Positions 3,018 to 59,124 are shown, counted from the stretch's first letter. The stretch is 64,000 bases of DNA from Chthoniobacterales bacterium (GCA_014879575.1 JACSRU010000090.1:1-64000); one strand, 5' to 3'. Program-made: numbers and translations. The notes: generated by a model from the sequence alone, not told the origin.

Positions 3018-6000
3018 TTACCGTTCGTGCTCGATTTCTGCGGCTCTTACCGGCACCTGAACCGGCTGCCTCTCCACCTCTGCCACTTTTTCCCTCTCGC
3101 GCAGGATTCCCCGGAGCATCCCGATACCCTTGACGCAGATGTTCTGGAGTTCAGCGAATCCACGGACTGCCCAGTTGTGGGCGTCCAAGCTGCCGAACAG
3201 CTCCACTTTCTTTCCGGTTGATACGTCGATGCAGGGATGGGCTGCCTTGGCACCAGGATCTCCCAGGAAGGCGGACAACTCATCTGGGCGCTCAATGTCC
3301 TTTTCCAGCTCCCCTTGCCATTCTCCATGCCATACGGGGATGGGATCGGTTTCCCTCTCGACTTTCCCAGCGTTGAAATTCTCAATGGCCAGAGCCCGAG
3401 CGTTGTATTGATGGGGTTTGGCGTTAGCCAGGGTTTGTTTGGCACCATCCGGCAGGAAATATTTATCGAAGCCGAAGCCTGCATTACCCCGAGGCGGCAC
3501 AATCTGGCCATGCACTTCCCCGAGGTAATGGCACACCTTGCCATTCTCCACCATCCCCAGAATAACCCGGAATGTGGCCCGCTTGCCGATATACTGGTCC
3601 ATGTTTTCCAACTGCCATTTCACGTTCACCCCGACATCTGCCCCCTCGATGTCCAGGGAGGTGTCTTCTACCAGGGTATTTTCCGGCACTTGGGCAGCCT
3701 TGTAGGCCACAACCCGCCAGGCATCACTGGCCGGTTCCTTGAGATCCACGGAAGTCATGCCGACAATGTTCAGGCCCAGTTTGTCGAATTCCCTCAATTT
3801 GTCTGTGTTGCTGGTATTCAGGTTCACCTCGCGCAGGCCCAGACGCTCCACGGAGGGCACCAGCGGGCGCTTTACGGGCTTCACTGGCACCTTGTCTCTC
3901 TCCAGCTTCAAATCACTGGCGTTCTCGCGTTGCCCGAGATGCTGGATATGGTCCTGTAATGCCTCCCTATCGGCAGTGAAAATGGAACAACTCCATTTAC
4001 CACGAGATGTGGATACATACCAGTCCTCTGTTGTGAGACATGCCTTGCACATGGAGTCAGACATAAGAACATGGTCCACTGTTTCACCTTGGGAACCGTA
4101 AGATGTAACAGCATATCCATGTTTCAACATCTTAAAGTCCGAAGCAATGGTGAACTTTTTCCCATACCAAGGCTTTTTGTTCAAAAGTTCAACAACGACT
4201 AACGCACCATCTTTCTCCTGCTTTACTACTTCCATTATCTGCCCGTTTGCCAACTTTGACCTTCTCTTGGCAGTGATATTCTTGGTTATTGTAAGCGGGG
4301 AGCGCTTTTTCAGTTCGCCACTCGCAGAAGAAGCTGGGATGGAATACACCTTGCCGTCGGATGCCTTGACATAGATATAATTATCATCCTTGCCTTTCTT
4401 TGCGAATGTCACCGTTTCACCTGCTTTCAGTTTAGTTGTTACCTCATACTTGATATTCGCTTTCAATTGCACCTTGTCTCCTGCCGTCAGGTTCAACTTT
4501 GTAGGCACACAGACAGTTATACTTTTAAGCTCCTCTTCTTTAACCTTGCGCTCTTTACCATCTACGCTGATAACAATGCCTCTATTTTCATCCTCTCTCA
4601 CGAATTTTGCCACGGCTCCTGCCTTGGTGCTTCCAATATTCATGTTTAAGACGAGAACGGCATCATCAGGGTAATATCGGGCGCATTCCTTTTCTGCATC
4701 CGTCATGTCCACTGTTTTTAGCGTCTCTTTGTCAAACGAGGCGGACAGATCCAATTTGCCTACTTTTGCTAGTTCTTCCCGAATAGCCAGATTCAGGGCT
4801 TCCACTTCCGCATTTGTCTGGGATAGCATAAGCACATTGCCGCCAGTTTTTGTTTCTTTATTGTATTCTTTGCTATCGCCCATCCTTTGAACAAATGCCT
4901 TGGCAGCGATTGTGTTTTTATCTGCAAGGGTTGTATCGACGATTGAACCCATTTCATCCAGTATCTTCCAAGACAGGGAGGTGTCCCCTCGCGAAGCAGC
5001 AGCGACGGCAGACTTGTATTGTTCCGTCTGTTGACGCTGAATTGCATATTCTCCTTCCAGGGCTGCCGTTGTAGGGTCGGCATAGTTCTCGATTGCCCGC
5101 ATTGCATCCGAGGCTTCAACTGGCCCCTTCTGCTTTGTATCACCAGAAAGGATAATTCTGCCGCCTCCAGCCTTAACCTTTTCCATCAGCAGTTGCATAG
5201 ACTTGCCACCGATCTGCCCCGCTTCATCCACCAGAACAACAGTATCTTTGTCAACGGAGATGGAGGAAGCAGGATGAAGGAAAGTGGAAACCGTATAGGC
5301 ATCAAACTCGTCTCCTATCAAACCAATGACTTGCTTGTTCTGGGGAGCCAAGACAACAACCTTTTTTTCTTTAGCCTTGAGAGCCAATATCAAAGCAGCC
5401 TCGACATGTTGAAGGCTGAAACTTTTACCTGTTCCAGCGCCACCCCTGAATACCGTGCAAAAGTCACTGCTCGAAAGCAACTTTTCAGCTACAGGCAACT
5501 GGGTTTCGTTCAGTGGATGCGCCAATCGTGTAAGGGTGATAGGCAGCAATTCCCCAAGCGGTTCATATTTCCCTTTTCCACCACGCACCGTATCCAATAA
5601 GAACTTTTCTGTTGCAAGGGCTTCCTTCGTTGTCATCCTTGTAGTTCCTATTTCATGGAGGAAAGACTTATCAGCCATAAGCGCCTTTCGGTAGTCTTCT
5701 ACACTATAGTCTGTGCCGAGAGTGTGTTTCAGGCATGTAGTAAGGAACATCTCTTGAGTAACAACCGCGTTTCTCTCGAATAAATGCTTTTTTGTCCAAG
5801 CAACTGTTTCTTTGGGGGATTCACTCCGAACAGGTTCGTTGGTTTTTCCAAAACTCTTCAATGCTTCCAATTCGGAAGCCGTCATTTGAGCCTGCCATGA
5901 TTCCCGCAATTCCTCAGCCTCTTGGGAACCGGTTTTCCGCATTCTTGTCGAATGCGCTACCCTGTTTTTAAGCTTCTCATGGCCACTCTTGGCCCCTGAT

Positions 6001-6788
6001 GCTTCAAGTTCAGCAGTTGTCTCCTCAATCTTGCTGTGTCTCTTGCTGAATTTATCGCACAGGCTGGTTGGAATATGGTCCAGTTCCCAACCTTTCCCTT
6101 TACTCCGTATTGCATACCCCATTTTCTTGAGTTCCCGGCATAGTTCATAGTCATACACGGAACTGATGAATCTCTGATTTTTTAGCATTTCATAGTTTTG
6201 CAGCGCCTTCCACTTGTCGTTGTCACCGGGATCTTGGGTGCAGTTGAATACCAGAAGATGGGTATGAAGTTGCGGATCTCCCACCTGCTCAGCCGATACA
6301 GCCCTGCTTGTTTCGTGTGTAAATGCCGCCATTGTGAGGTTTCCTGTTGCCCTGTCCTTCCCATTCATCGAATCCCCTTTGGCCCTCACCCGTGCCGTCG
6401 CATACTTTTCCAGCTCCTTGGCGGCAATTGCCACCGCCTTGGCATGGGCCTTCAATATTCTGTCGTCTCCACCCACCAACGCCGCAACACTCACGCTTTT
6501 GGGAGGAGCGATCATCCAGTCATAAAATACACGCCGGTTGGGGGTGTCTCCCTCCCTCACGGTATTCATCCGTTGAGTCAACATGCTGCCGTCCGGTTTC
6601 TCTCCAGCGCACAGATGAATAAACTCCTTTTCGTGAACCTCGCCGTTTAATCCGAGTAATTCAGCTCCCTTGCCCATCCAGGTTCCAGGTGTGGCCTGCT
6701 TTGAACTATAGTAGTCCCCACTTGTTAGGTGCGACTTGAAGTAATTCTTAGCATTTGTGAGGTTTGTTTGGGGAACGGGCTTTATCAT
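3018..6788 (-). CDS. MobF relaxase-helicase with C-terminal HAM1-like domain
   Basis: A 1256-aa conjugative relaxase of the TrwC/TraI (MobF) type. It should nick oriT, bind the strand covalently through a tyrosine and unwind the plasmid. Candidate tyrosines are Y16 and Y26-Y27; the metal-binding histidines include H175-T-H177 in D-P-Q-L-H-T-H. The SF1 helicase part has Walker A G-A-G-T-G-K near residue 450, Walker B V-L-V-D-E-A near 520 and T-S-Y-G-S-Q-G-E-T near 895. Residues about 989-1143 match the HAM1/RdgB inosine-triphosphatase fold: N-T-D-K-L-R-E-F, L-V-E-D-T-S-L, R-A-T-F-R-V, P-R-G-N-A-G-F-G-F-D-K-Y-F-L-P-D-G and Y-N-A-R-A-L-A. The protein ends I-E-H-E-R, like other element proteins. 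ATG 6788 is preferred to GTG 6794 because the CTGCTATAAT box would leave only one base before the GTG. The HAM1 fusion is unusual for relaxases. Confidence 0.93.
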   Translation of the reverse strand: MIKPVPQTNLTNAKNYFKSHLTSGDYYSSKQATPGTWMGKGAELLGLNGEVHEKEFIHLCAGEKPDGSMLTQRMNTVREGDTPNRRVFYDWMIAPPKSVSVAALVGGDDRILKAHAKAVAIAAKELEKYATARVRAKGDSMNGKDRATGNLTMAAFTHETSRAVSAEQVGDPQLHTHLLVFNCTQDPGDNDKWKALQNYEMLKNQRFISSVYDYELCRELKKMGYAIRSKGKGWELDHIPTSLCDKFSKRHSKIEETTAELEASGAKSGHEKLKNRVAHSTRMRKTGSQEAEELRESWQAQMTASELEALKSFGKTNEPVRSESPKETVAWTKKHLFERNAVVTQEMFLTTCLKHTLGTDYSVEDYRKALMADKSFLHEIGTTRMTTKEALATEKFLLDTVRGGKGKYEPLGELLPITLTRLAHPLNETQLPVAEKLLSSSDFCTVFRGGAGTGKSFSLQHVEAALILALKAKEKKVVVLAPQNKQVIGLIGDEFDAYTVSTFLHPASSISVDKDTVVLVDEAGQIGGKSMQLLMEKVKAGGGRIILSGDTKQKGPVEASDAMRAIENYADPTTAALEGEYAIQRQQTEQYKSAVAAASRGDTSLSWKILDEMGSIVDTTLADKNTIAAKAFVQRMGDSKEYNKETKTGGNVLMLSQTNAEVEALNLAIREELAKVGKLDLSASFDKETLKTVDMTDAEKECARYYPDDAVLVLNMNIGSTKAGAVAKFVREDENRGIVISVDGKERKVKEEELKSITVCVPTKLNLTAGDKVQLKANIKYEVTTKLKAGETVTFAKKGKDDNYIYVKASDGKVYSIPASSASGELKKRSPLTITKNITAKRRSKLANGQIMEVVKQEKDGALVVVELLNKKPWYGKKFTIASDFKMLKHGYAVTSYGSQGETVDHVLMSDSMCKACLTTEDWYVSTSRGKWSCSIFTADREALQDHIQHLGQRENASDLKLERDKVPVKPVKRPLVPSVERLGLREVNLNTSNTDKLREFDKLGLNIVGMTSVDLKEPASDAWRVVAYKAAQVPENTLVEDTSLDIEGADVGVNVKWQLENMDQYIGKRATFRVILGMVENGKVCHYLGEVHGQIVPPRGNAGFGFDKYFLPDGAKQTLANAKPHQYNARALAIENFNAGKVERETDPIPVWHGEWQGELEKDIERPDELSAFLGDPGAKAAHPCIDVSTGKKVELFGSLDAHNWAVRGFAELQNICVKGIGMLRGILREREKVAEVERQPVQVPVRAAEIEHER

Positions 6789-6795
6789 ATCCACT

Positions 6796-6805: not shown

Positions 6806-6825
6806 ATATTGTTTACTTGTTTATT

Positions 6826-6848
6826 GTCGCTCCGTCTCACTACGCGAC
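6826..6848 (+). repeat. small hairpin repeat, covarying variant
   Basis: GTCGC and GCGAC flank TCCGTCTCACTAC. Compared with copies at 736 and 1581, the stem pair T-A has become C-G, so pairing is kept. It lies in the divergent gap between the relaxase and the gene at 6872. Confidence 0.5.
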
Positions 6849-6871
6849 TACCAACCTAAACAAGAAAACAT

Positions 6872-7270: not shown

Positions 7271-8179
7271 ATGGAAAGGAACCTTCATTGCACCCCTTGG
7301 CCCGCGAACTTCCCCAGGGTGGTTGCCATGTCGTCTGGGGTGGCATTGCAGGCACACCCGCTTCATGCCCTGGCCAAGGCTGGGGACATGGATGCCGCAG
7401 CCCGGCTGGTTCTGGATCTTGCCAAGCCAGACAAAATCCAGATGCTGGCAGCCCAGTTCCCTGATGCCGTGATCGTTCCGGTTCATGCCCAGGAGGCCAC
7501 TGGGATCAACCACATTCCAAGGAAGTTCGCCGACTACATTGCTCACCTCACCGGACTGGAGGCAGATACGGACGTTATTCAGTCCTCGACGGTGTTCAGA
7601 ACCGGAAAGGGGGGATGGTATCGGATGGCCTTCCGCCCAGAGTTCGATGGTCCGGTTCGAGAGGGCAGAGAACACATTTTGGTTGATGATTGCGTTACAG
7701 GAGGTGGTTCCCTCTCAGAACTTCGCCAGCACATCATACGCGGTGGCGGTAATGTCGTGGCCATGAGCACGATAGGCTACGCGCAGTTTTCAACCAATAT
7801 AGCACTTACTGAAAATACTCGTAATGCCCTCACAATACGCTATAATGGGAAACTACTCTATGACTGGCTCCAACAACACAACATCTACTGCGGGGAAGTC
7901 GGAGCCCTCACCGAATCCGAGGCACGACTTATCTACAATGCCAAAAGCCTTAACACAGCTACAGAAAGACTCTCTGAGGCGAAGCAACAAGCTTTCGCAG
8001 ATTCACAGCCAGAGCTATTTCCAAAAAGAAGCCGCCAAGAAGACATAGCGGCTCTTTCTGCCCAGCGAGCGGGCGAGGAAATATCCAAGGACAGGCAAGC
8101 CGTTCTCGACTTGTTGATGGCGGCGGACAGGGAAGATCAAGCCAAGGGGAATGTTCAGGATAATGAACACTCTAGGTAA
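7271..8179 (+). CDS. phosphoribosyltransferase-like protein with element tail
   Basis: A 302-aa protein. The PRPP-binding loop is visible as H-I-L-V-D-D-C-V-T-G-G-G-S-L near residues 137-149, typical of type I phosphoribosyltransferases (orotate-, purine- or ComF-like), with a preceding beta strand A-V-I-V-P-V-H. The substrate base cannot be told from the sequence. The last third is not part of that fold: it is helical, carries S-K-D-R-Q-A-V-L-D-L-L near residue 272 and ends N-E-H-S-R, features shared with other element proteins. The ATG is set by a promoter box 7 bases upstream. I infer a role in nucleotide salvage during or after transfer. Confidence 0.75.
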   Translation: MERNLHCTPWPANFPRVVAMSSGVALQAHPLHALAKAGDMDAAARLVLDLAKPDKIQMLAAQFPDAVIVPVHAQEATGINHIPRKFADYIAHLTGLEADTDVIQSSTVFRTGKGGWYRMAFRPEFDGPVREGREHILVDDCVTGGGSLSELRQHIIRGGGNVVAMSTIGYAQFSTNIALTENTRNALTIRYNGKLLYDWLQQHNIYCGEVGALTESEARLIYNAKSLNTATERLSEAKQQAFADSQPELFPKRSRQEDIAALSAQRAGEEISKDRQAVLDLLMAADREDQAKGNVQDNEHSR

Positions 8180-15444: not shown

Positions 15445-16176
15445 ATGAAAAAACAACTATACATAACAGCAGGCGGGAAAGGTGGGGTTGGCAAGACGAT
15501 TGCCCTACTCACATTAGCCGACTGCTTGAAACAACAAGACATTCCATTCGGCGCAATTGACGCCGATACGGAAAATGACGGGAAGGATGGAGCCTTTGGG
15601 AGCTATCTGGATGCAGAGACGGTGAACCTGAGAAGCTTGGAGGATTGCGACAGGCTGATTGGTTTGGCAGCGGAGAACGAGGTTACGCTGTGTGACTTAC
15701 CGGCGAATGCTGGGGGTGACATCATGCCTTGGTTCGAGAGTGTCATATCGCCCGAGGTATTGGAGGCTTTGGATTTGGAAATTACGCTGATTGGCAGTGT
15801 GAGCCCAGATGCCGGGAGTTTTGCCAGTGTCTGCGAGTGGGCCGGTAAATTGCAGGAGAGGGTGAAATACATTTTGGTGCTGAACCGGAAGACGATGCAG
15901 AGGACCGGGCGGACACTGGAGCAGACATTCCCCGAGGTGTATGCCACCAAGACGGGCCAGCAGTTCTTGAAAGGGCTAAAACCGGCGATTGTGGACATTG
16001 AGGGCCTGTTTGAAGTCTCCATGAGGCTTTGGGCCAAGAGCGGGCAGTTACCCAGCGCGGCGGCAGTTGCCCCTGAAATTCCGATTCTGGACAGGGCAAG
16101 GGTGAAGAACTGGGTATCCAAGATCCACCCGCAATGGGTGAAGGCCACGGTGGCAACATGGGAGGTGGACAAATAA
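15445..16176 (+). CDS. ParA/TraL-like ATPase
   Basis: A 243-aa deviant Walker ATPase: G-G-K-G-G-V-G-K-T-I near residues 10-19, A-I-D-A-D-T-E-N-D near residue 37 and V-T-L-C-D-L-P-A-N near 80. It resembles conjugal TraL proteins and ParA/MinD partition ATPases. No ParB-like gene is adjacent; the next gene is a membrane protein. The gene lies 3 bases after the traK-like stop. A role in positioning the relaxosome or element DNA is likely from the family; whether it serves transfer or partition cannot be told here. Confidence 0.8.
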   Translation: MKKQLYITAGGKGGVGKTIALLTLADCLKQQDIPFGAIDADTENDGKDGAFGSYLDAETVNLRSLEDCDRLIGLAAENEVTLCDLPANAGGDIMPWFESVISPEVLEALDLEITLIGSVSPDAGSFASVCEWAGKLQERVKYILVLNRKTMQRTGRTLEQTFPEVYATKTGQQFLKGLKPAIVDIEGLFEVSMRLWAKSGQLPSAAAVAPEIPILDRARVKNWVSKIHPQWVKATVATWEVDK

Positions 16177-17497: not shown

Positions 17498-18973
17498 ATG
17501 AAGAACCTATTTGAGAAGATATTTAATGGAGCGAAAACCGGTGAGCCTAAACAAGCGAGGTTATCGGATAAAACGGTATGGGATTTGGAAGAGGCTCTAG
17601 TGACGCTGCGTGCATTGGACGAGGATATTCCAATCACGGTGGGCCAGGCTTGCGAGGGAATTATGGTTTTTGGAACATCCGGGTCCGGCAAAACGAGTGG
17701 AGCACTGAACACCATTCAAATGGGCATGATGGAGGCTGGGTTTGGAATGCTGAATATCTGCGTGAAGGCGGATGAGGCTGACAGGGTGATTGCTTTGGCC
17801 AAGAAAGCAGGGCGGGAAAAGGATTTGCGGATTATGCGGTTGGGATGCGATGAAACACGTTTTAACTTTTTGGATTCTTTGAGAGCAGGTGGGGCAACTG
17901 CCGTCACGGCGGCATTTAAGCGCATTAACCAGTCGTTGCTTGGCAAGGTGGATGAGGATGAGTGGACACAGGCCAGCCAGGAGCACCTTACGAACCTTGT
18001 GCAGCTCTTCATTATGGCAGGAGAGAAGCTGGACATATCAGCGTTGAGAATGGCGCTGGATGACAAGCCATTACACAAGCAGATGATTGTTGATGCTTTG
18101 GATCGGTGCCCGAAGGGGAGCAGCGAGGAGCACACCATAAAAATGTTGGGGAACTACTTTTTGAAGCAATGGGTGGCGATGGGTGACAAGACGATGGCCA
18201 GCGTATTGATGAGTATCACGCCTACGTTGAATCCGTTTTGCACAGGTTACATGCGGGACTTGTTCTGCACCGACACGAATTTTACGCCGAGGGATCTGCG
18301 ACATGGAACAATACTGGTTTTGGACATTCCTTGCACCGGAGATAACTTTTCCTACGGGATCGCGGCAGGAACAATTTTGAAGTATATGACTCAGAAGATG
18401 ATTGAGTCGTATTTCGGCGAAGGGCAGGTTGCGGGGCAGAAGAAGCAGAAGAAGGCAGGTAAGGCGACGAGGCCGGTGGTAATTGTTGTGGACGAATGCC
18501 ATTACGTCACAACGGCGGATGATTCTGAATTTGTTACCACGTCCCGCTCAATGAGAGGCGGGCTATTTTACCTTACCCAGGACATAAACAACTTTTACAA
18601 GCGGGGGGCGAAGACAATTGAAGCCGAAACCGGGGCTCTTTTGAGCAATCTTCACGGCGTCAGGATTATGCATCAAAACGCTGATGATAAGACGTTCCAG
18701 TGGTTCTCGAATGTGCTTGGCAAGGAAATGAAGGAGCAGTTCTCCGAGTCTGGCAGCTTTTCTGGCCCAACAGGAACCGGTTCTGTGAGCACAAGCAGAT
18801 CGTTGCAGGAGAAGGATCAGATTTCCCGCAGGGATTTCAATATCGGGTTGGCCAGGGGAGGCCCGAAATGGAAATTTGTCGTTACTGGGATATTACAGCA
18901 GGATGGACGAGTCTATAAAGAAGGTAAGATGTGGAAGCAGGTTGCCTTTCAGCAAATGGACTTGGATAAATAA
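17498..18973 (+). CDS. conjugative coupling protein (VirD4/TraG-like), copy 1
   Basis: A 491-aa ATPase. Walker A is G-T-S-G-S-G-K-T near residues 59-66, Walker B V-V-I-V-V-D-E-C-H-Y near 327-336, followed by a serine/threonine-rich T-T-S-R-S-M-R-G-G motif. This fits type IV coupling proteins or TraD/VirD4-like ATPases that bring relaxase-DNA to the secretion channel. It lacks the usual N-terminal transmembrane pair, so it may rely on a partner such as the membrane protein at 16178. Set by its own promoter box; a terminator follows its stop. A paralogue comes next at 19118. Confidence 0.82.
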   Translation: MKNLFEKIFNGAKTGEPKQARLSDKTVWDLEEALVTLRALDEDIPITVGQACEGIMVFGTSGSGKTSGALNTIQMGMMEAGFGMLNICVKADEADRVIALAKKAGREKDLRIMRLGCDETRFNFLDSLRAGGATAVTAAFKRINQSLLGKVDEDEWTQASQEHLTNLVQLFIMAGEKLDISALRMALDDKPLHKQMIVDALDRCPKGSSEEHTIKMLGNYFLKQWVAMGDKTMASVLMSITPTLNPFCTGYMRDLFCTDTNFTPRDLRHGTILVLDIPCTGDNFSYGIAAGTILKYMTQKMIESYFGEGQVAGQKKQKKAGKATRPVVIVVDECHYVTTADDSEFVTTSRSMRGGLFYLTQDINNFYKRGAKTIEAETGALLSNLHGVRIMHQNADDKTFQWFSNVLGKEMKEQFSESGSFSGPTGTGSVSTSRSLQEKDQISRRDFNIGLARGGPKWKFVVTGILQQDGRVYKEGKMWKQVAFQQMDLDK

Positions 18974-19117: not shown

Positions 19118-20428
19118 ATGAACACAAAAAACAATGTTTGGAAACGGGATAGTGAATTGCTTAAACTTAAAGGAGCCAAAGGAAATATAGTTATTCCTAT
19201 TGGTCAGGTTCTGGAGGGAGTCATGGTATTGGGAGGTGTCGGATCTGGTAAAACCAGCAGGAGCCTAAATACTATCCAGAAAGCGATGATGGAAAAAGGC
19301 TTTGGGATGCTGAATTGCTGCGTGAAGGCGGACGAGGCAGACAGAGCCAAGAAGTTGGCGCAAATTACTGGTAGAGGGGATGATGTCAGGGTGATGAAGC
19401 TGGACGGCAGCGTTAAGTTCAACATCTTGGAGGCATTGCGCCTAGACGGGAGGGCAAAGGTGACGAATGCTATCCTACAGATTAGCGAACCCGAATGGGC
19501 GAAAGAAGGTTGCGGGTGGGCACAAGCAGCGCATGAACACCTTAACAACCTTGTATGGTTGTTTATTTTGGCGGGAGAGAAACTTGATATTTCGGCGATA
19601 AGGTTGGCACTCGACGACGCGCAGGTTCACAAGAAGCTACTCACAGAGGCAGCGAAATCAATTACGAAAGGAGCGAAGGAAGAGCACGAGTTACTTTTGC
19701 TCACCGCCTACTTTCTGCAACAGTGGACGAGAATAAGTGAAAAGACAAGGGAAAGCATATTAACTCCTCTGAAAGCTTCCCTGTCCCCGTTTTGCAACGG
19801 CCCTATGCGTGATATTTTTTGCACCGACACTACCTTTGATCTCAAGGAACTACGAGAGGGCAAGATACTCATTGTGGACATTCCGTGTGTGGGGGAGAAC
19901 GCAATATCTGGAATAGCCGCAAACAAGATCATGAAATTTATGGTTGAGCAGATGATTGAAAACACAAAGATTGTGAATGAGAGCATTCGTCCTGTAATCA
20001 TTGTTGCTGATGATTGCCACTATGTTACAACATCATATGATGCCGTATTCGCAACGTGCGCCCGTAGCGTCAAAGGTGGACTTTTCTTCCTTACTACGGG
20101 TATAGACGCATTATCACGCACACCAGGCATTTTAACGGCTTTGAGAGGATTGAGGGTCCTGCACAGCAGCCCCGAGGCATTGCATCAGTTGATAACGGGT
20201 GCGCGGGCTGCCAAAGTTTCAACGTATATCTGGTTTCGGGAGAAGCTGTCAGAAACACATCTGGATAAAATACCTTGGTGGGCATTCTGGCTAAAGGGCT
20301 CTCCTCTTCCATCGGAGCGGGACTTTCCCAATGGCTCCAATGAGGCACTAATTCAGTTGAACCCAGATTTTTACCCAATAAAGCACAGGGCGTATGCCAA
20401 GATCAAGTTCCCTTCTCCGAGCAGGTAA
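19118..20428 (+). CDS. conjugative coupling protein-like ATPase, copy 2
   Basis: A 436-aa paralogue of the preceding ATPase; the two share long stretches, for example G-F-G-M-L-N then C-V-K-A-D-E-A-D-R, L-A-G/I-M-A-G-E-K-L-D-I-S-A, and D-I-F/L-F-C-T-D-T. Walker A is G-G-V-G-S-G-K-T near residue 40. The Walker B glutamate is replaced: V-I-I-V-A-D-D-C-H-Y instead of V-V-D-E-C-H-Y, so hydrolysis may be weaker. The C-terminal 60 residues differ from copy 1 and end in a basic segment. It has its own promoter box. It could form mixed hexamers or serve other substrates. Confidence 0.75.
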   Translation: MNTKNNVWKRDSELLKLKGAKGNIVIPIGQVLEGVMVLGGVGSGKTSRSLNTIQKAMMEKGFGMLNCCVKADEADRAKKLAQITGRGDDVRVMKLDGSVKFNILEALRLDGRAKVTNAILQISEPEWAKEGCGWAQAAHEHLNNLVWLFILAGEKLDISAIRLALDDAQVHKKLLTEAAKSITKGAKEEHELLLLTAYFLQQWTRISEKTRESILTPLKASLSPFCNGPMRDIFCTDTTFDLKELREGKILIVDIPCVGENAISGIAANKIMKFMVEQMIENTKIVNESIRPVIIVADDCHYVTTSYDAVFATCARSVKGGLFFLTTGIDALSRTPGILTALRGLRVLHSSPEALHQLITGARAAKVSTYIWFREKLSETHLDKIPWWAFWLKGSPLPSERDFPNGSNEALIQLNPDFYPIKHRAYAKIKFPSPSR

Positions 20429-22844: not shown

Positions 22845-23786
22845 ATGAAAGACATCTACCAACAAATTACCGACAGGATGGTTGAGCAGTTGAAAAAGGG
22901 CAATGTTCCTTGGCAACGCCCTTGGGTTGAAGCCCAGAACATCGTTACCCAGAAACCATACAGAGGGGTGAATACGTTCGTTTTGGCGTGTGAGGAGCGG
23001 GAAAGCCCATTCTGGATGACATACCGGCAGGCAGTGGAGCTGGGGGGCAACGTCAAGAAGGGCGAGAAATCTACCCCCATCATCTACTGGAATTTCAAAG
23101 ACATGAAGGATGACAAGGGGATTGTGATGCTGGACAGCAAAGGCAATCCCAAGCAGATCCCGTTCATCCGGTGGGCGAATGTGTTCAACCTTGAGCAGAC
23201 GGAGAACATCAAGGCCCCGGAACTGGCCAAGGATGGGGATACGCGGCTGCCATTGGAGAAGGCACAGGAGATTCTGGAAAAGGCGCAGGTTTGTGAAATG
23301 AGCCTGAATGCCCAGCTTTCCGGTCCGTGCTACATCCCTTTGCTGGACAAGGTAGAGGTTCCGAGCATCCAGAGGTATCCGAATCCGGCGCTGTTTTACC
23401 ATTCTGTCTTTCACGAGCTGGCACATGCAACCGGACATGCCAGCCGGTTGAACAGGGAGGGCATTACTCTCCCCAGGGGCAAGGAGCGGTATGCCAAGGA
23501 GGAGCTGATTGCCGAATTGTCATCCAGCTTCCTGTGCAATGATGCGGGGATTCTGGGGGAAGTCGAATTCAAGAATTCATCCGCCTACATCTCCAGTTGG
23601 CTCGAAGCCCTTGGGAACGATCCGAAACTTTTGATTGCCGCCAGTTCGTCCGCACAGAAGGCGGCGGAATACGTGAAGGGAGAGAGGGAGATCCAGAAGA
23701 AGTCAACCAGGGAGGAGATATTGGACATGATAGTGGGTTCCAGCTCCACCCAGAACGAGAGGGGGAACGAGCATGAGCGCGAGTAA
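22845..23786 (+). CDS. ardC: ArdC-like antirestriction protein
   Basis: A 313-aa protein with the ArdC two-domain layout. The N-terminal ssDNA-binding part starts D-I-Y-Q-Q-I-T-D-R-M-V-E-Q-L and contains P-W-x-R-P-W and Y-R-G-V-N. The C-terminal metallopeptidase-like part has F-H-E-L-A-H-A-T-G-H near residues 188-198 and a later E-E-L-I-A-E-L. ArdC proteins protect incoming DNA from restriction and that of plasmid pSa is known to travel to the recipient. This one ends G-N-E-H-E-R-E, the tail shared with the relaxase and others. The last 14 bases also encode the start of the next gene. Confidence 0.88.
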   Translation: MKDIYQQITDRMVEQLKKGNVPWQRPWVEAQNIVTQKPYRGVNTFVLACEERESPFWMTYRQAVELGGNVKKGEKSTPIIYWNFKDMKDDKGIVMLDSKGNPKQIPFIRWANVFNLEQTENIKAPELAKDGDTRLPLEKAQEILEKAQVCEMSLNAQLSGPCYIPLLDKVEVPSIQRYPNPALFYHSVFHELAHATGHASRLNREGITLPRGKERYAKEELIAELSSSFLCNDAGILGEVEFKNSSAYISSWLEALGNDPKLLIAASSSAQKAAEYVKGEREIQKKSTREEILDMIVGSSSTQNERGNEHERE

Positions 23787-25987: not shown

Positions 25988-26677
25988 TCATTCAGAAACC
26001 AGTTTTCCGACTATTGAACGAATAGGAGCTAGAAAGATTCTATCTGCACTTCCGTAAAAAATAACTGAACCATCGCGGCGAATATCACACGAGCTTGGTT
26101 CTTTTTTATCTTTATCTGAGTCAATAACTTTTACAGAGGCAATTGACTTAGTGACTCCTTTAGCAATGCGGTCAATAAATGGGCGAACATCATTTGCCCC
26201 TGAAACAGTGCATTTCGCTGAAACGCTTTTAGAAAGAGTTATTTCGTTTATTTTTACCGCACTGGCGATGAGGGAATCCTTTTCGGCTTTTAAGGCATCA
26301 AATACTTCAAATGGCTCAATCTGAATCGGATCAATACGAAATGACATCGAAAACGCCACGCTCAATTGTCCTATAAACAAACTAATTCCGCGAGACGGAA
26401 CCACAACTTCCAATTCGGGGGCAACAAGGGATATTTTGAAAGGAATGCGACGGAACTCAATACGTTCATAAATGATTTCCTTACCGTATGGGTCTTCAAC
26501 TGTGTCGCTCAGCTCGACTTTATGAATAAAAGTTCCTTCAAGATAACTCGGCCTTATCTCTTTGACTGAAAATCCAATGCCTTTTTCATCGGAATATTCA
26601 GCAGCAAGGATTCTCGCTCCCGCAGCCTTTAATGCTTTGGAGTCAAGTTTGGGAAGTCGCAACCACTGAACCTTCAT
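25988..26677 (-). CDS. third protein of nuclease-like cassette
   Basis: A 229-aa soluble protein, last in a three-gene minus-strand operon. The ATG overlaps the stop of the 384-aa gene (ATGA). It alternates strands and helices (K-I-S-L-V-A-P-E-L-E-V-V-V-P-S-R; I-A-S-A-V-K-I-N-E-I-T-L-S-K) and has the C-terminal D-K-D-K-K-E segment. AT-rich codons match its two partners and differ from the neighbouring exported genes. No family is recognised. Role inferred only from the operon. Confidence 0.6.
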   Translation of the reverse strand: MKVQWLRLPKLDSKALKAAGARILAAEYSDEKGIGFSVKEIRPSYLEGTFIHKVELSDTVEDPYGKEIIYERIEFRRIPFKISLVAPELEVVVPSRGISLFIGQLSVAFSMSFRIDPIQIEPFEVFDALKAEKDSLIASAVKINEITLSKSVSAKCTVSGANDVRPFIDRIAKGVTKSIASVKVIDSDKDKKEPSSCDIRRDGSVIFYGSADRIFLAPIRSIVGKLVSE

Positions 26678-27828
26678 TTTTTCTCCTCTTCTGGTTGGGA
26701 ATCTGAACCTGTATTGCTATTTTCAAGACTTTCTTCAACCTTGGCATATGCAGAATAAGCCGCTTTTTCGAGTGCCCGTTTGATTTTTGCCATGTCTGGA
26801 GGAACCCCTTTGGGCTTCTTTTTTCCTTTATCCACATTCGGCTTAATTACTCGACGAACTGCAAAATTGAACTCGTTGGCATAGACAGGATCATCGAATG
26901 AGCAGGCGAATTCCGCGATGCGATGGTCGCCGCCTATTTCTTGGGCAGTCCAGACAATACTTCCAATGTAATAGCCGCTATCCTTTAATTGGTCGTAAAA
27001 ATCCGTGGTGTGAACTGCCTTACCGTTCAAGGCTGCCTTGCGCAGCAATCCCTTGATGGCCTCTGATTCGGCAGATTCCTCTTTCGTTTCCTCGCCCCCC
27101 TCTTCCTCATCATCCTCTTCTTCGTCTGGAAGACGATGTTCCATATGAATTTCCTTTACGTCGAGAAGAGTGAATCCTTCAACATTTTGAATAATATCAA
27201 AAAAGAATGCGATACGTGCCGCCGAGTCACGAACATCGTGCAGAGAGATAATCCGTTGAGTGCTTTTATCTTTGTCTTTATATGGGAGTGCGCGAACCAG
27301 TTGACGAACAACCTCACCCGCTCTTTCGATGCCTGAAAATCGAATATCAAGAGAGCCAGGCGTGTTTTCCAACTCGATTGTGAATACGCGTTGAATTCGT
27401 TGTAATGGCGTAGCACTCTTTAGATTCAACTCCACGAATGACACTTCAACATTGTAGGAATTATCTTTGCCGGATATTGGGGTGATTTTGTAGTTTTCTT
27501 TGAATGATGTTCTTGCCTTAAATGTTTCTTCAATGGCGTCCTTGATCTTTTCTGCATCCAATTCGCCAAGAACTTGGCGTGTCTTTTCCTTCGAGATATT
27601 GTCTGCTATATTGAGTTCGGACGAAATCCTTTCGACTGTCGAAAAAGAGAATATCTGTGAACACAGGTAGTTTTGGACATCTTCAATGTCATCATTACTC
27701 GACATCAGGATTCCACGACGGTTCCCAATTTTAAGAAGTTTTGTTTTTGGGATTTCTTTCCCAGCGAATAAATCCCTTAAATCTTTGTCGGTAAGATACT
27801 GCGAGGCTAACTGTATTATCTTTGACAT
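26674..27828 (-). CDS. second protein of nuclease-like cassette
   Basis: A 384-aa protein. Residues about 240-255 are strongly acidic (P-D-E-E-E-D-D-E-E-E-G-G-E-E), separating an N-terminal alpha/beta region from a C-terminal one with a Lys-rich end and acidic tail. No membrane segment and no recognised motif; I looked for Walker and HNH motifs and saw none. It overlaps the upstream nuclease-like gene by one base and the downstream gene by ATGA, so the three products are probably made in fixed ratio as a complex. Confidence 0.6.
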   Translation of the reverse strand: MSKIIQLASQYLTDKDLRDLFAGKEIPKTKLLKIGNRRGILMSSNDDIEDVQNYLCSQIFSFSTVERISSELNIADNISKEKTRQVLGELDAEKIKDAIEETFKARTSFKENYKITPISGKDNSYNVEVSFVELNLKSATPLQRIQRVFTIELENTPGSLDIRFSGIERAGEVVRQLVRALPYKDKDKSTQRIISLHDVRDSAARIAFFFDIIQNVEGFTLLDVKEIHMEHRLPDEEEDDEEEGGEETKEESAESEAIKGLLRKAALNGKAVHTTDFYDQLKDSGYYIGSIVWTAQEIGGDHRIAEFACSFDDPVYANEFNFAVRRVIKPNVDKGKKKPKGVPPDMAKIKRALEKAAYSAYAKVEESLENSNTGSDSQPEEEKK

Positions 27829-28835
27829 TATTTCATTCCTTGGCCGGTTTCTGAAAATGCAGGCGCGGTAGCTGGAACCCTCTTTATTGTTATCTGTGCC
27901 AACTGACGCTCCATAGCAGATTTTGTTGTCTCTTTTTTGTCTATATTATATAAAGGCCAGTATTCCTCCGCATAGATTCTTTTTGCTTTTTCAAATACTG
28001 CTTCCGCATTTTTATGCGGAGATGGCATCCTGATCGTAATAGGAACCTCGCCTACGGCAATCTGGTATTGAAATAGATAATCGAACAGATACTGAAACTC
28101 CTTGTCTGTTTCTCCAGAAATATCGGTATAAACAAGGTAGCCATTGGTCCCGCCTGCTCGCCCATATTCAATTACCTGCCAAGGAGCCAGAAGTGTTTCA
28201 ATAGAAGCAACCTTGCTGCGTGTCTCAAAAAAATGGATCGTGGAAAGCACTGGATACACAAAATGCTTTGGCGGATTTGCCCCCAACAACCCCTTGGGCC
28301 TATATTCCGACTCTATATCCTTTTTGATCGAATATAGGTAACGCACTCGCGCGGGAGAGAGCACATAGAGCCGTTTACCTTTATCCAAATTAAGGCTGCG
28401 CGGATTAAGCTCTTCTAATTCCTTTGAGAAGTCCTTTGTATAATCCCCATCATTATTATATATAAATAAGAGTCCCCGAGTGTGATTCTTGTCGGATTCA
28501 TTGACATATAAAGTTCTGAATTCTTTTGATAACTCGGCGCAACTGATTGTCTCACCGATATTCTTTAGGCAGTCCTCCATATCAAATCCGTCAATCGAGG
28601 CAGCTTTATAACTTTTAAGATCGGAGATAAGGTAAACTACCTCTCCAAAGTGTGGATCGCAGTAACGGAAAACCATATCGCTCGTATGGCCTCCGGCCTG
28701 TTTTTTTGAATGACGCTTTTTCTGTTCGCATGGCCAATTGGAATTTGTGGGGCCAACTCTTTCCCAGCCAAACATCTCGAATATCTCTTGTGCGAGATCT
28801 TCCGCCATTGATTGAATATTTACGGTTTCAGCCAT
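27828..28835 (-). CDS. PD-(D/E)XK-like protein, first in three-gene cassette
   Basis: A 335-aa protein. Near residues 48-80 it has H-T-S-D-M-V-F-R-Y then V-V-Y-L-I-S-D-L-K-S-Y, the D ... D-x-K pattern of PD-(D/E)XK nucleases, after a basic patch K-K-R-H-S-K-K. The remaining 250 residues are not recognised. First gene of an operon of three tightly overlapping genes located at the edge of the conjugative element, next to host-like genes, which is typical of defence cassettes. DNA or RNA cleavage on phage infection is a guess; the nuclease call itself rests on the motif only. Confidence 0.55.
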   Translation of the reverse strand: MAETVNIQSMAEDLAQEIFEMFGWERVGPTNSNWPCEQKKRHSKKQAGGHTSDMVFRYCDPHFGEVVYLISDLKSYKAASIDGFDMEDCLKNIGETISCAELSKEFRTLYVNESDKNHTRGLLFIYNNDGDYTKDFSKELEELNPRSLNLDKGKRLYVLSPARVRYLYSIKKDIESEYRPKGLLGANPPKHFVYPVLSTIHFFETRSKVASIETLLAPWQVIEYGRAGGTNGYLVYTDISGETDKEFQYLFDYLFQYQIAVGEVPITIRMPSPHKNAEAVFEKAKRIYAEEYWPLYNIDKKETTKSAMERQLAQITIKRVPATAPAFSETGQGMK

Positions 28836-55377: not shown

Positions 55378-55580
55378 TTGGCGGGGGTTAGGAAGATGGG
55401 GCAAAGAGCACCGGGGTGCAAGGGAAAATTCTGGGAATCCTGTGATCCTGACAATGGAAGGTTGCCATTTTCCAAAATATTCCCGAAGTTTTTTGAAGTG
55501 TAGGTCTATAAATGTCCAACCCTCAATGCTTCAATCGCACGCATAAACCCCACACTTCCCAAACTTTCCCTCCCAAAACC

Positions 55581-58268
55581 ATGCCCGAAAACTTCCCCGC
55601 CTTCTTCTCCCGGGCATTTTTCGACGCCAGGCAACCTTATGCCTTCCAAACCCGTCTCGCTTGTGGGGTGAAAGCAAATTCCAGTGCTCCGGAATCTTTG
55701 ACCCACGGCACCGCCTGCGCAAGCCGCCTCATCGACATCCCCACCGGCCTCGGCAAAACCGCCGCCGTGGTCCTCGCGTGGCTCTGGAACCGCGTCGCGC
55801 ATTCCGACCCCGCGGCCCACGCCAAATGGCCGCGCCGCCTCGTCTATTGCCTGCCCATGCGCACGCTGGTGGAGCAGACCCATGACGAAACCGGGCGCTG
55901 GCTGAAAAACCTTGGCCTCGACGAGCAAGTCGGCCTCCACCTCCTCATGGGAGGCGAGGACGCCGGCGAATGGGACATCCATCCCGAGCGCGCTGCCATC
56001 CTCATCGGCACCCAGGACATGCTCCTCTCCCGCGCCCTCAACCGCGGCTACGGCATGTCCCGCTACCGCTGGCCCATCCACTTCGGCCTGCTCAACAACG
56101 ACTGCCTGTGGGTGATGGACGAGACGCAGCTCATGGGGCCGGGGCTGGGCACGGCCTGCCAGTTGGAAGCGTTTCGAAACCCAGCCCCACAAGGCTTCGA
56201 GTCGTTCGGCGGCAATGGCTCGGTGACTTGGTATCTTTCGGCGACGAGCAACCTCGATCTGCTGAAAACACGGGATTGGCGCGATGTTCCTCGCTCAGAA
56301 GAATTCGTCTTCGGCCTCACTGACGAGGAGAAGGCGGCGACTGACGGTGACATTCCGCGCCGCCGCAACGCCGCAAAACGGCTGGAACTGAAATCGGGTT
56401 CCCATTTCGGCGATATAACGGCAGCCGGAGCGCCCGTCTCATCCATTCTTGCGGAACATCGGCACATGCTCGAAGCCATCGGCAATGACACCGATCTGCC
56501 CGCGCGGACGCTGATCATCTGCAACACCGTAGATCGCGCCATGGCGGTGCATCAGCAACTCGCGACAGAAAAGCCGGACGGTTGCGACCTGCTGCTGCTC
56601 CATTCCCGTTTCCGCCCCGTGGAACGCAGTGCGCAGATGGAGCGTCTCGGCTCGGTTGACCGAACGGCTTTCCCCAAGGGCCAAATCGTCGTCGCCACCC
56701 AGGTCATCGAAGCGGGCGTGGATGTTTCCAGCGGCATCCTGTGGTCGGAGGTCGCCCCGCTGGCCTCGCTCGTGCAGCGGCTCGGACGGCTGAACCGGGC
56801 GGGTGAGTTCAATGAATCGAACTGGCAGCCCTTGGCGGTCATTGTCGGCATCGGTCTCGAAAACGCCCCGCAACGGGAGAACAAGGAAGCGAAGGAAAAG
56901 CGCGAGAGGGAAAATGCCAAGCGTTGCCTGCCCTACGGACTCGCAGCCTGCGAAACCGCCTGGACATCGCTGGACATCCTCAACGCAAACGCCTCCCCGG
57001 CAAACCTCGCAACCATCCAGCCCGAAATCGCCGCATCCATCCCGCGCTGTCCGTATTCGCTCCAGCACCACGAGTTGCTCGATTTCTTCGACACCGACGC
57101 CAATCTCTCGCTCGGCTTCACCGATGTCTCGCCGTTCGTTCGCGGGCTGGACGAGGACACGGACATTCAAGTGCTCTGGCGCGAAAGCTGGCTGCAGAAG
57201 GACGGCGAAGAAGGCACCAGAGAACCCGGATTCACCCCCGACTTCCAGCGCGATGAACTTTGTTCTGTCCCCATCGGCAAAGCGCTCAAGGCCCGCGACA
57301 TTCTGAATCAAGGTTGGATCTGGCGCGGCAAGGACGCCGGTTGGGCCAGCGTGCGGGACGCCGGACTTGCTCCCGGCATGACCATCCTCCTGCCACTCAC
57401 CGCCGGAGGCTACGACGAGCAGGCCGGCTGGACGGGTAACACAGACAACAACAGGCACTCCTCGCCCTACAAACCGCAGAAAACCAAGACCGACGAAGAT
57501 CTGCTTTCCTATCTGGACAACGGCTGGCGCAGCATCGCCGCGCACACGTGCGATGTCGGCGACGAACTCACGAGCCTGCTGGATGTCCTGCTTCCAAAAT
57601 ACGAATCGGAGCGCAGCGCCCTGTTGGCGGCGGCCCCCTGGCACGATGTCGGCAAGAACCACCCCGACTGGCAGTCCGCCGTGGTTAGTGCCTTGGGGAA
57701 AGCTGGCATTGATGGAAAAGACGAACACAAGCCCTTCGCCAAGTTCTCGCTTTCGGAAAGCCCGCGCCTCCGCGGCCTGACGGACGCTGACCTGCGAAAG
57801 GAAATCGCCCGCCTCAAGCGCCTGTTCCGTCCCGGCCTCGCCCACGAAGTCGCCTCCGCCCTCGCCTTCCGCCAGGCCGAGCAGGCGCGTCTCGGCCACG
57901 ACCGCGACACCGACCTCGCCAGCCTGCTCGCCGAATACGTCATCATGAGCCACCACGGGCGCGTCCGGAAAGTCCTCCGCGACGAAATCCCCCGGAATCC
58001 GAAAGACGCAAAAGACACCGAAACCGTGCGCGGCATTGCCGGGGGAACCGAACTTCCTGCGGTCGTCATCAACGACGAGTCGCTTGGTTGCAAGGACCTC
58101 GCCACCGACTGCCGCAAGATGGGTCGCGGCGCGGACGGCCACGAAAGCTACACGCGCGGCGTCCTGCGCCTGCTCGACCACTACGGTCCCTTCCGCCTCG
58201 CCTATTTCGAAGCCGTTTTCCGCTCAGCGGACATCCGCGCATCCATCCAAGCACAACAGAATCCATGA
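55581..58268 (+). CDS. cas3: Cas3 helicase-nuclease, type I-G (I-U)
   Basis: An 895-aa Cas3 with helicase first and HD nuclease last, the order of type I-G. Walker A is D-I-P-T-G-L-G-K-T-A near residue 55, the DExH-box V-M-D-E-T-Q near 180, I-E-A-G-V-D-V near 385 and Q-R-L-G-R-L-N-R near 400. The HD motif A-P-W-H-D-V-G-K-N-H-P is near 687, with later M-S-H-H-G. It unwinds and degrades DNA marked by the Cascade complex. ATG 55581 is preferred; ATG 55512 in frame adds 23 residues. GC content is much higher than in the preceding regions. The stop overlaps the next ATG. Confidence 0.93.
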   Translation: MPENFPAFFSRAFFDARQPYAFQTRLACGVKANSSAPESLTHGTACASRLIDIPTGLGKTAAVVLAWLWNRVAHSDPAAHAKWPRRLVYCLPMRTLVEQTHDETGRWLKNLGLDEQVGLHLLMGGEDAGEWDIHPERAAILIGTQDMLLSRALNRGYGMSRYRWPIHFGLLNNDCLWVMDETQLMGPGLGTACQLEAFRNPAPQGFESFGGNGSVTWYLSATSNLDLLKTRDWRDVPRSEEFVFGLTDEEKAATDGDIPRRRNAAKRLELKSGSHFGDITAAGAPVSSILAEHRHMLEAIGNDTDLPARTLIICNTVDRAMAVHQQLATEKPDGCDLLLLHSRFRPVERSAQMERLGSVDRTAFPKGQIVVATQVIEAGVDVSSGILWSEVAPLASLVQRLGRLNRAGEFNESNWQPLAVIVGIGLENAPQRENKEAKEKRERENAKRCLPYGLAACETAWTSLDILNANASPANLATIQPEIAASIPRCPYSLQHHELLDFFDTDANLSLGFTDVSPFVRGLDEDTDIQVLWRESWLQKDGEEGTREPGFTPDFQRDELCSVPIGKALKARDILNQGWIWRGKDAGWASVRDAGLAPGMTILLPLTAGGYDEQAGWTGNTDNNRHSSPYKPQKTKTDEDLLSYLDNGWRSIAAHTCDVGDELTSLLDVLLPKYESERSALLAAAPWHDVGKNHPDWQSAVVSALGKAGIDGKDEHKPFAKFSLSESPRLRGLTDADLRKEIARLKRLFRPGLAHEVASALAFRQAEQARLGHDRDTDLASLLAEYVIMSHHGRVRKVLRDEIPRNPKDAKDTETVRGIAGGTELPAVVINDESLGCKDLATDCRKMGRGADGHESYTRGVLRLLDHYGPFRLAYFEAVFRSADIRASIQAQQNP

Positions 58269-59119
58269 GTGCCCTCGCCCTTTTTGAAGAAAAACAAGTC
58301 CGCCGCGCCTGGAACCAGGCCGAGGAAAAATGGTATTTCTCCGTCGATGACGTGGTGCAGATCCTGACCGAATCAGCCAATGTCAAAGACTACATCAAGA
58401 AGCTCCGCAAGCGCGATCCTGCCCTCGAATCCTACTGGGGGACAAATTGTCCCCTGGTAGCCATGCCCGGAGCCGACGGCAAAATTCGCCCCATCCGTGC
58501 GGCCAGTGCCGAGGGTTTGCTCCGCATCATCCAATCCATTCCCTCGCCCAAGGCCGAACCCTTCAAGCTCTGGCTCGCCAAAGTCGGTTACGAGCGGCTG
58601 GAGGAAATCGAAAACCCTGAACTTGCAGCCAAGCGAATGCGTGAGCTTTATGAGCAGAAAGGCTACTCCGAAGACTGGATTGAAAAACGACTACGCGGCA
58701 TCGCGGTGCGCGATGAACTCACCGACGAATGGAAAAAACGCGGTGTGAAGGAGCAGAAAGAATTCGCCATTCTCACCGCCGAAATCAGCCGCGCCACCTT
58801 CGGCATGACCCCCTCCGAATACAAAGCACACAAAGCCCTCGCCAACCCGAAGGACAACTTGCGTGATCACATGACCGACCTGGAACTTATCTTCACCATG
58901 CTCGGCGAAGCCTCCACCACCGAGATTGCCAAGAAACGAGACGCTCGGGGCTTTCCGCAAAACCGGATCGCCGCCCAAGCCGGAGGCACCGTCGCCGGCA
59001 ACGCCCGCAAGGAACTCGAAGCCCAGAGCGGCACCAAGGTCTCCACCAAAGGAAACTTCAAAGCCTTGACAGGCAGCTCGGCCAAGAAACTGCCCCGCCG
59101 CAACCCCAAAATCGACTGA
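58265..59119 (+). CDS. BRO-N/DinD-like protein within the cas operon
   Basis: A 284-aa protein. The N-terminus has the BRO-N pattern (V-R-R-A-W-N-Q-A-E-E-K-W-Y-F-S-V-D-D-V-V-Q-I-L-T), Y-I-K-K-L-R-K-R-D near residue 42 and a middle part resembling DinD (Y-S-E-D-W-I-E-K-R-L-R-G-I-A). The end is Lys/Arg-rich. BRO-N proteins act as phage antirepressors, and E. coli DinD inhibits RecA. ATGA overlap with cas3 and only 5 bases before csx17 show that it is a coupled member of the operon. It is not a standard type I-G gene. Regulation of the operon or of repair near cleaved DNA are possible roles. Confidence 0.85.
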   Translation: MSALALFEEKQVRRAWNQAEEKWYFSVDDVVQILTESANVKDYIKKLRKRDPALESYWGTNCPLVAMPGADGKIRPIRAASAEGLLRIIQSIPSPKAEPFKLWLAKVGYERLEEIENPELAAKRMRELYEQKGYSEDWIEKRLRGIAVRDELTDEWKKRGVKEQKEFAILTAEISRATFGMTPSEYKAHKALANPKDNLRDHMTDLELIFTMLGEASTTEIAKKRDARGFPQNRIAAQAGGTVAGNARKELEAQSGTKVSTKGNFKALTGSSAKKLPRRNPKID

Positions 59120-59124
59120 CCGCC

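Follow-up and report, generated by a model that had tools for sequence, protein, structure and literature searches.

A MobF relaxase-helicase joined to a compact HAM1 domain in a Chthoniobacterales bacterium

The window analyzed here was a 64,000-nucleotide stretch from a Chthoniobacterales bacterium (GCA_014879575.1 JACSRU010000090.1:1-64000). On its minus strand, a single gene was found to encode a MobF relaxase, a superfamily 1 (SF1) helicase, and a C-terminal HAM1 domain. This combination had been proposed from the DNA alone, hereafter the sequence-only reading, and was borne out by profile, fold, and residue checks. The relaxase-HAM1 architecture was previously undescribed in the sources searched; it is built from two known families and has been seen once so far. 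With a probability of roughly one half, the protein was judged to belong to a mobilizable element whose relaxase gained a C-terminal HAM1 pyrophosphatase, which would be active on non-canonical purine triphosphates near the transferred strand.

The fusion gene and its C-terminal domain

The fusion gene and its parts were located as follows.

3018-6794, minus strand: MobF relaxase-helicase-HAM1 fusion gene, 1258 aa; start GTG 6794, alternative start ATG 6788
5880-6755, minus strand: TrwC/MobF relaxase domain, residues 14-305; Pfam TrwC E 1.5e-76, NCBIfam MobF 228 bits (cut-off 100)
4938-5513, minus strand: SF1 helicase ATPase core AAA_30, residues 428-619; Pfam E 1.9e-31
3315-3839, minus strand: compact HAM1 domain, residues about 986-1160, including the W-x-G-x-x-Q tail motif; placed by Pfam, family alignment, AlphaFold/Foldseek, and tree; GC content at third codon positions (GC3) 0.66
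3021-3314, minus strand: C-terminal tail, residues 1161-1258; long low-confidence helix of no family, predicted local distance difference test (pLDDT) mostly <60, GC3 0.69

The frame was unbroken over 1258 codons, with the stop codon at 3018-3020. The sequence-only reading had bounded the gene at 3018-6788; ATG 6788 is an in-frame start, but the frame extends to GTG 6794. The fusion protein matched Pfam TrwC with 258 bits against a cut-off of 25. Its relaxase and helicase motifs are intact, as the relaxase tyrosines (Y18 and Y28/Y29), the HUH histidines (THETS at 159 and HTHLL at 177, with HTH at 177-179), Walker A (GGAGTGKS at 451), and Walker B (DEAG at 523) were all present. The homology of the helicase part to its relatives extended to about residue 965-985, and the junction between the helicase and the HAM1 domain was a proline-rich basic linker with an uninterrupted frame.

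The Pfam model Ham1p_like matched residues 992-1138 with 55.3 bits (curated cut-off 22.5; E 9.9e-15), and the whole-genome DNA search gave 58.8 bits (E 1.4e-15). Chance is excluded as the source of this match, and the fusion is real. The NCBIfam HAM1 models matched the same region with E from 5e-9 to 5e-4, but far under their equivalog cut-offs, namely, 31.0 versus 145.4 bits for TIGR00042 and 36.2 versus 272 bits for PRK14823. Therefore, the domain was regarded as a divergent HAM1 member. All motifs on which the original assignment was built were found: NTSNTDKLREF from about residue 993, VEDTSL from 1042, RATFRV, GFGFDKYFLPDG from 1106, and YNARALA around R1133. Their order and spacing had been described as those of HAM1, and this held in general, except that the distance between EDT and GFGFD was shorter than canonical. 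Because the region after EDT is shortened, the dimer mode of the domain is uncertain.

The fold was evaluated with an AlphaFold model of residues 970-1258, for which an alignment of eight sequences was the input. The pLDDT was mostly 80-95 in the HAM1 domain and poor in the linker and tail. When the modelled domain was compared with known structures using Foldseek, the top matches were PH1917 with inosine triphosphate (ITP; 3.2e-12) and human ITPase (4.2e-12, also as its ITP complex), and the TMt values of the ITPase matches were 0.65-0.74. Plasmodium Ham1 and KomB were also matched, and Maf proteins scored far lower. As modelled, the domain has the ITPase fold, and the motif-based assignment thus withstood the structural comparison.

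In human ITPA, Glu44, Asp72, Phe149, and Arg178 were named crucial (PMC9016069), and Arg178, which reads the 6-oxo group, was classed as essential for selectivity (PMC5075207). The equivalents of all four were retained in the domain (E1020, D1044, F1107, and R1133), together with the phosphate-binding TSNxxK (T994-S-N-x-x-K999), K1032, E1043-D1044-T1045, and D1110, which corresponds to Asp152. The sequence-only reading had allowed for a lost active site; the catalytic, metal, and base-pocket residues were kept, but the SHR signature reads NAR in the fusion protein, with His replaced by Ala and Arg retained.

The base composition of the gene was uneven, with a GC3 of 0.66-0.69 in the HAM1 domain and tail versus 0.50 in the first 980 codons (Fisher p ~1e-4). 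This contrast is compatible with a later acquisition of the domain and tail; however, it is weak evidence because GC3 was also high (0.60) in the first 150 codons, at the relaxase N-terminus.

Occurrence of the fusion and relatives of the domain

MobF matches to the fusion protein were obtained from 79 of 384 genomes of the same class and 29 of 213 genomes of the same order. In the MobF relaxases of the class, homology ended near residue 985, and the tails were short and often basic. Among the matches listed, no other one covered residues 990-1140 at E<=1e-10 (order) or E<=1e-12 (class). On inspection, the extensions of the long relaxases of the class (1017-1348 aa) had a low-complexity or basic appearance and no HAM1. 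With a profile of the compact HAM1 subfamily described below, the fusion gene was the sole match in 388 genomes of the phylum (E<=1e-15). Plasmid searches by tblastn with the whole protein returned ordinary MobF relaxases, and the C-terminus was covered by none of the matches listed. No paper uniting relaxase, inosine triphosphate, and conjugation was found in the literature searches, nor did titles and abstracts describe such a fusion architecture.

A canonical RdgB is encoded elsewhere in the host, on contig C100; therefore, the domain does not represent a housekeeping gene that has moved. An origin as a duplicate of the host rdgB was also considered and was rejected by the tree and alignment. 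Beyond the host RdgB, the best full-length matches were standalone proteins on ~0.9-Mb Vibrio and Pseudomonas megaplasmids. An alignment of these megaplasmid members, used as query, led to uncultured viral contigs (242, 543, 102, 68, and 55 kb, and others) and Chlamydiota genomes, with identities to the domain of up to 57% over part of its length. The members of this compact subfamily had in common VEDTxL, GFD, and N/S-A-R replacing S-H-R, with N-P-R in the phage contig L084 and S-S-R in one Pseudomonas member as exceptions. They also shared the W-x-G-x-x-Q tail where the sequence extends that far and were without ~15-20 residues that RdgB has after the EDT/DDS motif. Most of the checked active-site residues were invariant in eight members from phages, plasmids, and Chlamydiota, and function is therefore under selection in the compact subfamily. 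The sequence-only reading had missed this SHR-lacking phage and megaplasmid subfamily; since the domain belongs to it, ITP, deoxyinosine triphosphate (dITP), or xanthosine triphosphate (XTP) cannot be assumed as the substrate.

In the maximum-likelihood tree, the window domain grouped with the phage contigs L084 and L085 (100/97), followed by Chlamydiota and the jumbo phage L086 (97/94). Support for the entire compact group was moderate (81/76), and KomB adjoined it on a long branch. From these sequence relationships, the HAM1 domain was apparently acquired from a phage/megaplasmid gene pool.

The genomic settings of the relatives were varied. The jumbo-phage member lies ~2.3 kb from a dCMP deaminase gene. 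In L085 (5773-6384), the HAM1 part likewise forms the C-terminal end of a fusion, here behind a phrog_13934-like N-terminus; it stands in a head-gene cluster after portal, major head, and virion structural genes, lacks TSNxxK, and is likely non-catalytic. The megaplasmid copies L048 and L050 (Vibrio) and L049 (Pseudomonas) are standalone, those of Vibrio being directly upstream of a CCA-adding enzyme gene. A Parachlamydiaceae copy (L081:6000-6600) seems to be split by a frameshift, with two matches in different frames. No relaxase was found in the genomes and records carrying standalone compact HAM1s, and of the 13 records returned by plasmid tblastn with the domain alone, none had a relaxase annotation. 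PHROGs held no family matching the HAM1 domain, and back-translated patterns from the single sequence revealed no close relatives in IMG/VR and GTDB contigs. Neither the domain nor two megaplasmid members found a match among GenBank phages, where the jumbo-phage member as query gave weak matches only.

The element around the fusion gene

The neighborhood was characterized by a Pfam scan of 30 open reading frames (ORFs) of the window, and the following features were listed.

7271-8179, plus strand: phosphoribosyltransferase-like protein (ILVDDCVTGGGSLSE motif); NCBIfam pyrE_Therm E 2.3e-5, no Pfam match; divergent from the relaxase gene, start uncertain
15445-16176, plus strand: ParA-like ATPase; its homologue adjoins the relaxase in related elements
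17498-18973, plus strand: type IV secretion system (T4SS) coupling protein (T4SS-DNA_transf/TraG); Pfam 1.7e-9, homologues near relaxases in relatives
19118-20428, plus strand: second, shorter coupling protein-like ATPase; Pfam 1.7e-5
22845-23786, plus strand: ArdC antirestriction protein (ArdcN and MPTase-PolyVal); Pfam 3.7e-32 and 3.6e-28

Mobile elements of Verrucomicrobiae and Proteobacteria have been reported to carry phosphoribosyltransferase-like domains (PMC5512222). A KAP-type NTPase and a DNA methylase were also found around the relaxase gene. The element is probably mobilizable. No tyrosine-integrase match was present on this contig, and no att-type repeats were evident at the element bounds, where only short hairpin repeats were seen. 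The left end of the element may lie beyond the contig. A hairpin with the conserved loop GCTCCGNYTCNCTANGC occurred in five copies (513-544, 730-761, 1575-1606, 2005-2029, and 6820-6851; 0.04 expected by chance). All five are confined to the leftmost 7 kb, where they lie between small genes or immediately precede the relaxase start. The stems of these hairpins covary (ATGGC/GCCAT, GTTGC/GCAAC, and GTCGC/GCGAC).

Beside the element, at 26674-28835 on the minus strand, a two-gene pair matched PADLOC Hp1 (1.9e-45) and Hp2 (1.5e-23) with no Pfam match and is a candidate defence cassette. The right part of the window looked chromosomal, with an ABC transporter, an O-antigen ligase, and a type I-G CRISPR-Cas locus (Cas3g, Csx17). 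The latter covers 55512-61440 of the window and runs to 69337 on C62 of G000 (L012), and at its contig end an apparent CRISPR array was read as a repetitive ORF.

Possible roles of the fused domain and comparison with known systems

MobF relaxases are covalently bound to the transferred strand and carried into the recipient, and their helicase tracks on DNA. As the relaxase is strand-bound and enters the recipient, the fused domain would work next to the helicase, close to the sites at which the strand is displaced or copied and its complement is synthesized. There, it would cleave (d)ITP/XTP-like or other 6-oxo-purine triphosphates to the monophosphate and pyrophosphate, and the level of non-canonical purine triphosphates at that site would be lowered. 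In Ugandan cassava brown streak virus, some of the HAM1 remains covalently attached to the viral RNA polymerase, and the virus depends on the ITPase activity in its natural host (PMC8893687). Nucleotide clean-up during strand copying, as put forward in the sequence-only reading, is plausible by this analogy, because the potyvirus fusion of HAM1 with a replication protein clears ITP/XTP (PMC8893687) and relaxases enter recipients. That the catalytic set is completely preserved speaks mildly in favor of an enzyme, and the phosphoribosyltransferase-like gene beside the relaxase was counted as further support.

Several points weigh against this reading. The pyrophosphatase activity of the domain is a prediction from sequence and model, and the transfer of the element is likewise predicted. 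With Ala for the His of SHR and a region after EDT that is shortened relative to RdgB, both the substrate and the oligomeric state may differ. VirB4-type ATPases (PF19044, PF03135) were not found in the assembly; therefore, the element would at best be mobilizable by another system. Only one such fusion is known, too few to measure selection acting on it, and this single occurrence limits the claim.

A first, rather unlikely alternative is that the domain is non-hydrolyzing and binds a nucleotide to gate the relaxase or helicase, as a sensor like KomB. KomB, described as a dITP receptor (PMC12948488), has the HAM1 fold with S-M-R for S-H-R and was a solved-structure match of the domain, and the compact subfamily is likewise without the His. 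In L085, a close relative from a phage, the entire N-terminal TSNxxK part is missing, and non-enzymatic reuse therefore seems to happen in this clade. However, all checked catalytic and metal residues were retained in the window domain, and no KomA- or KomC-like gene was seen among the window ORFs scanned.

Less probable is a counter-defence function, an idea also raised in the sequence-only reading and with an indirect basis, in which the domain, delivered with the relaxase, would destroy a nucleotide signal or modified nucleotide used by recipient defence. The compact subfamily is distributed on mobile elements, ArdC and a DNA methylase are carried on the same element, and nucleotide-based defences exist, such as Kongming, in which the HAM1-fold KomB binds dITP (PMC12948488). 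Nevertheless, no direct link to any defence system was seen, Chlamydiota genomes also carry subfamily members with no evident conflict context, and HAM1 is absent from the phage measures listed against Kongming, which consist of Dmp enzymes and delayed kinase expression (PMC12948488). A broader version, equally unlikely, would make relaxases delivery vehicles, with HAM1 covalently linked to the incoming DNA erasing a non-canonical or signalling purine nucleotide used by recipients and the compact subfamily serving as a shared counter-defence module.

It is slightly more doubtful again that a phage-derived gene was recently joined by chance to the end of the relaxase gene as a neutral passenger with no role in transfer. 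The single occurrence, the related relaxases without HAM1, and the GC3 contrast would fit such an event, but that contrast is weakened by the relaxase N-terminus, the active-site residues and subfamily tail motif are intact, and ~270 added residues contain no stop or frameshift. Finally, a joining of two unrelated genes in the draft assembly (178 contigs) is very improbable, because the frame runs without interruption through the linker, and a chance in-frame chimera of a helicase end and a HAM1 start is not to be expected.

If the clean-up reading is true, the element sends a nucleotide-cleaning enzyme of its own together with its DNA. An active domain would make this the first relaxase with an attached nucleotide-sanitizing enzyme among the data and open papers searched, and bacterial conjugation would mirror the polymerase-HAM1 pairing of plant viruses. 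Two questions become accessible to experiment, namely, whether synthesis of the replacement strand in recipients is limited by the quality of the nucleotide pool and whether mobile elements are equipped with enzymes directed at nucleotide-based immune signals. The finding further brings to light a compact HAM1 subfamily that occurs in phages, megaplasmids, and Chlamydiota and has no match in PHROGs.

Compared with HAM1/RdgB/ITPA (PF01725), the domain shares the fold, the motif order, and the equivalents of Glu44, Asp72, Phe149, Asp152, and Arg178; the known enzymes are free homodimers, whereas the domain here is compact, has NAR for SHR and an extra W-x-G-x-x-Q tail, and is fused to a relaxase-helicase. 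TrwC/TraI and the 930-1000-aa MobF relaxases of the class, the nearest of the latter being 37-43% identical to the fusion protein, likewise combine relaxase and SF1 helicase with similar ParA and coupling protein neighbors, but they end in a short tail soon after the helicase, without HAM1. The MobA-RepB' protein of RSF1010 is a relaxase-primase fusion of the MOBQ type, whose primase would help replacement-strand synthesis in the recipient. It resembles the present protein in that a relaxase is fused to an enzyme that would aid recipient strand synthesis, and differs in pairing primase with MOBQ rather than a predicted pyrophosphatase with MOBF.

KomB of Kongming similarly has the HAM1 fold with the SHR His replaced and Arg retained; however, this dITP receptor has the operon partners KomC (SIR2) and KomA, and the Pfam scan of 30 window ORFs showed no adenosine deaminase or SIR2 partner. 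A Kongming-like operon of adenosine deaminase, HAM1, and SIR2 was observed separately near tet(B) on the Vibrio parahaemolyticus plasmid pHLA (L051:2703-5022). The polyvalent proteins that conjugative elements and phages encode (PMC5512222) are comparable as effector domains delivered by invaders, and ArdC and phosphoribosyltransferase-like genes occur here too, but the carrier here is the relaxase itself, and HAM1 is unmentioned in that paper by text search. In NIb-HAM1 of the cassava brown streak viruses (Potyviridae, PMC8893687), HAM1 is likewise attached covalently at the C-terminal side of the replication protein of a mobile genome; there the partner is an RNA virus polymerase, partly cleaved apart, whereas here it is a bacterial DNA-transfer relaxase-helicase.

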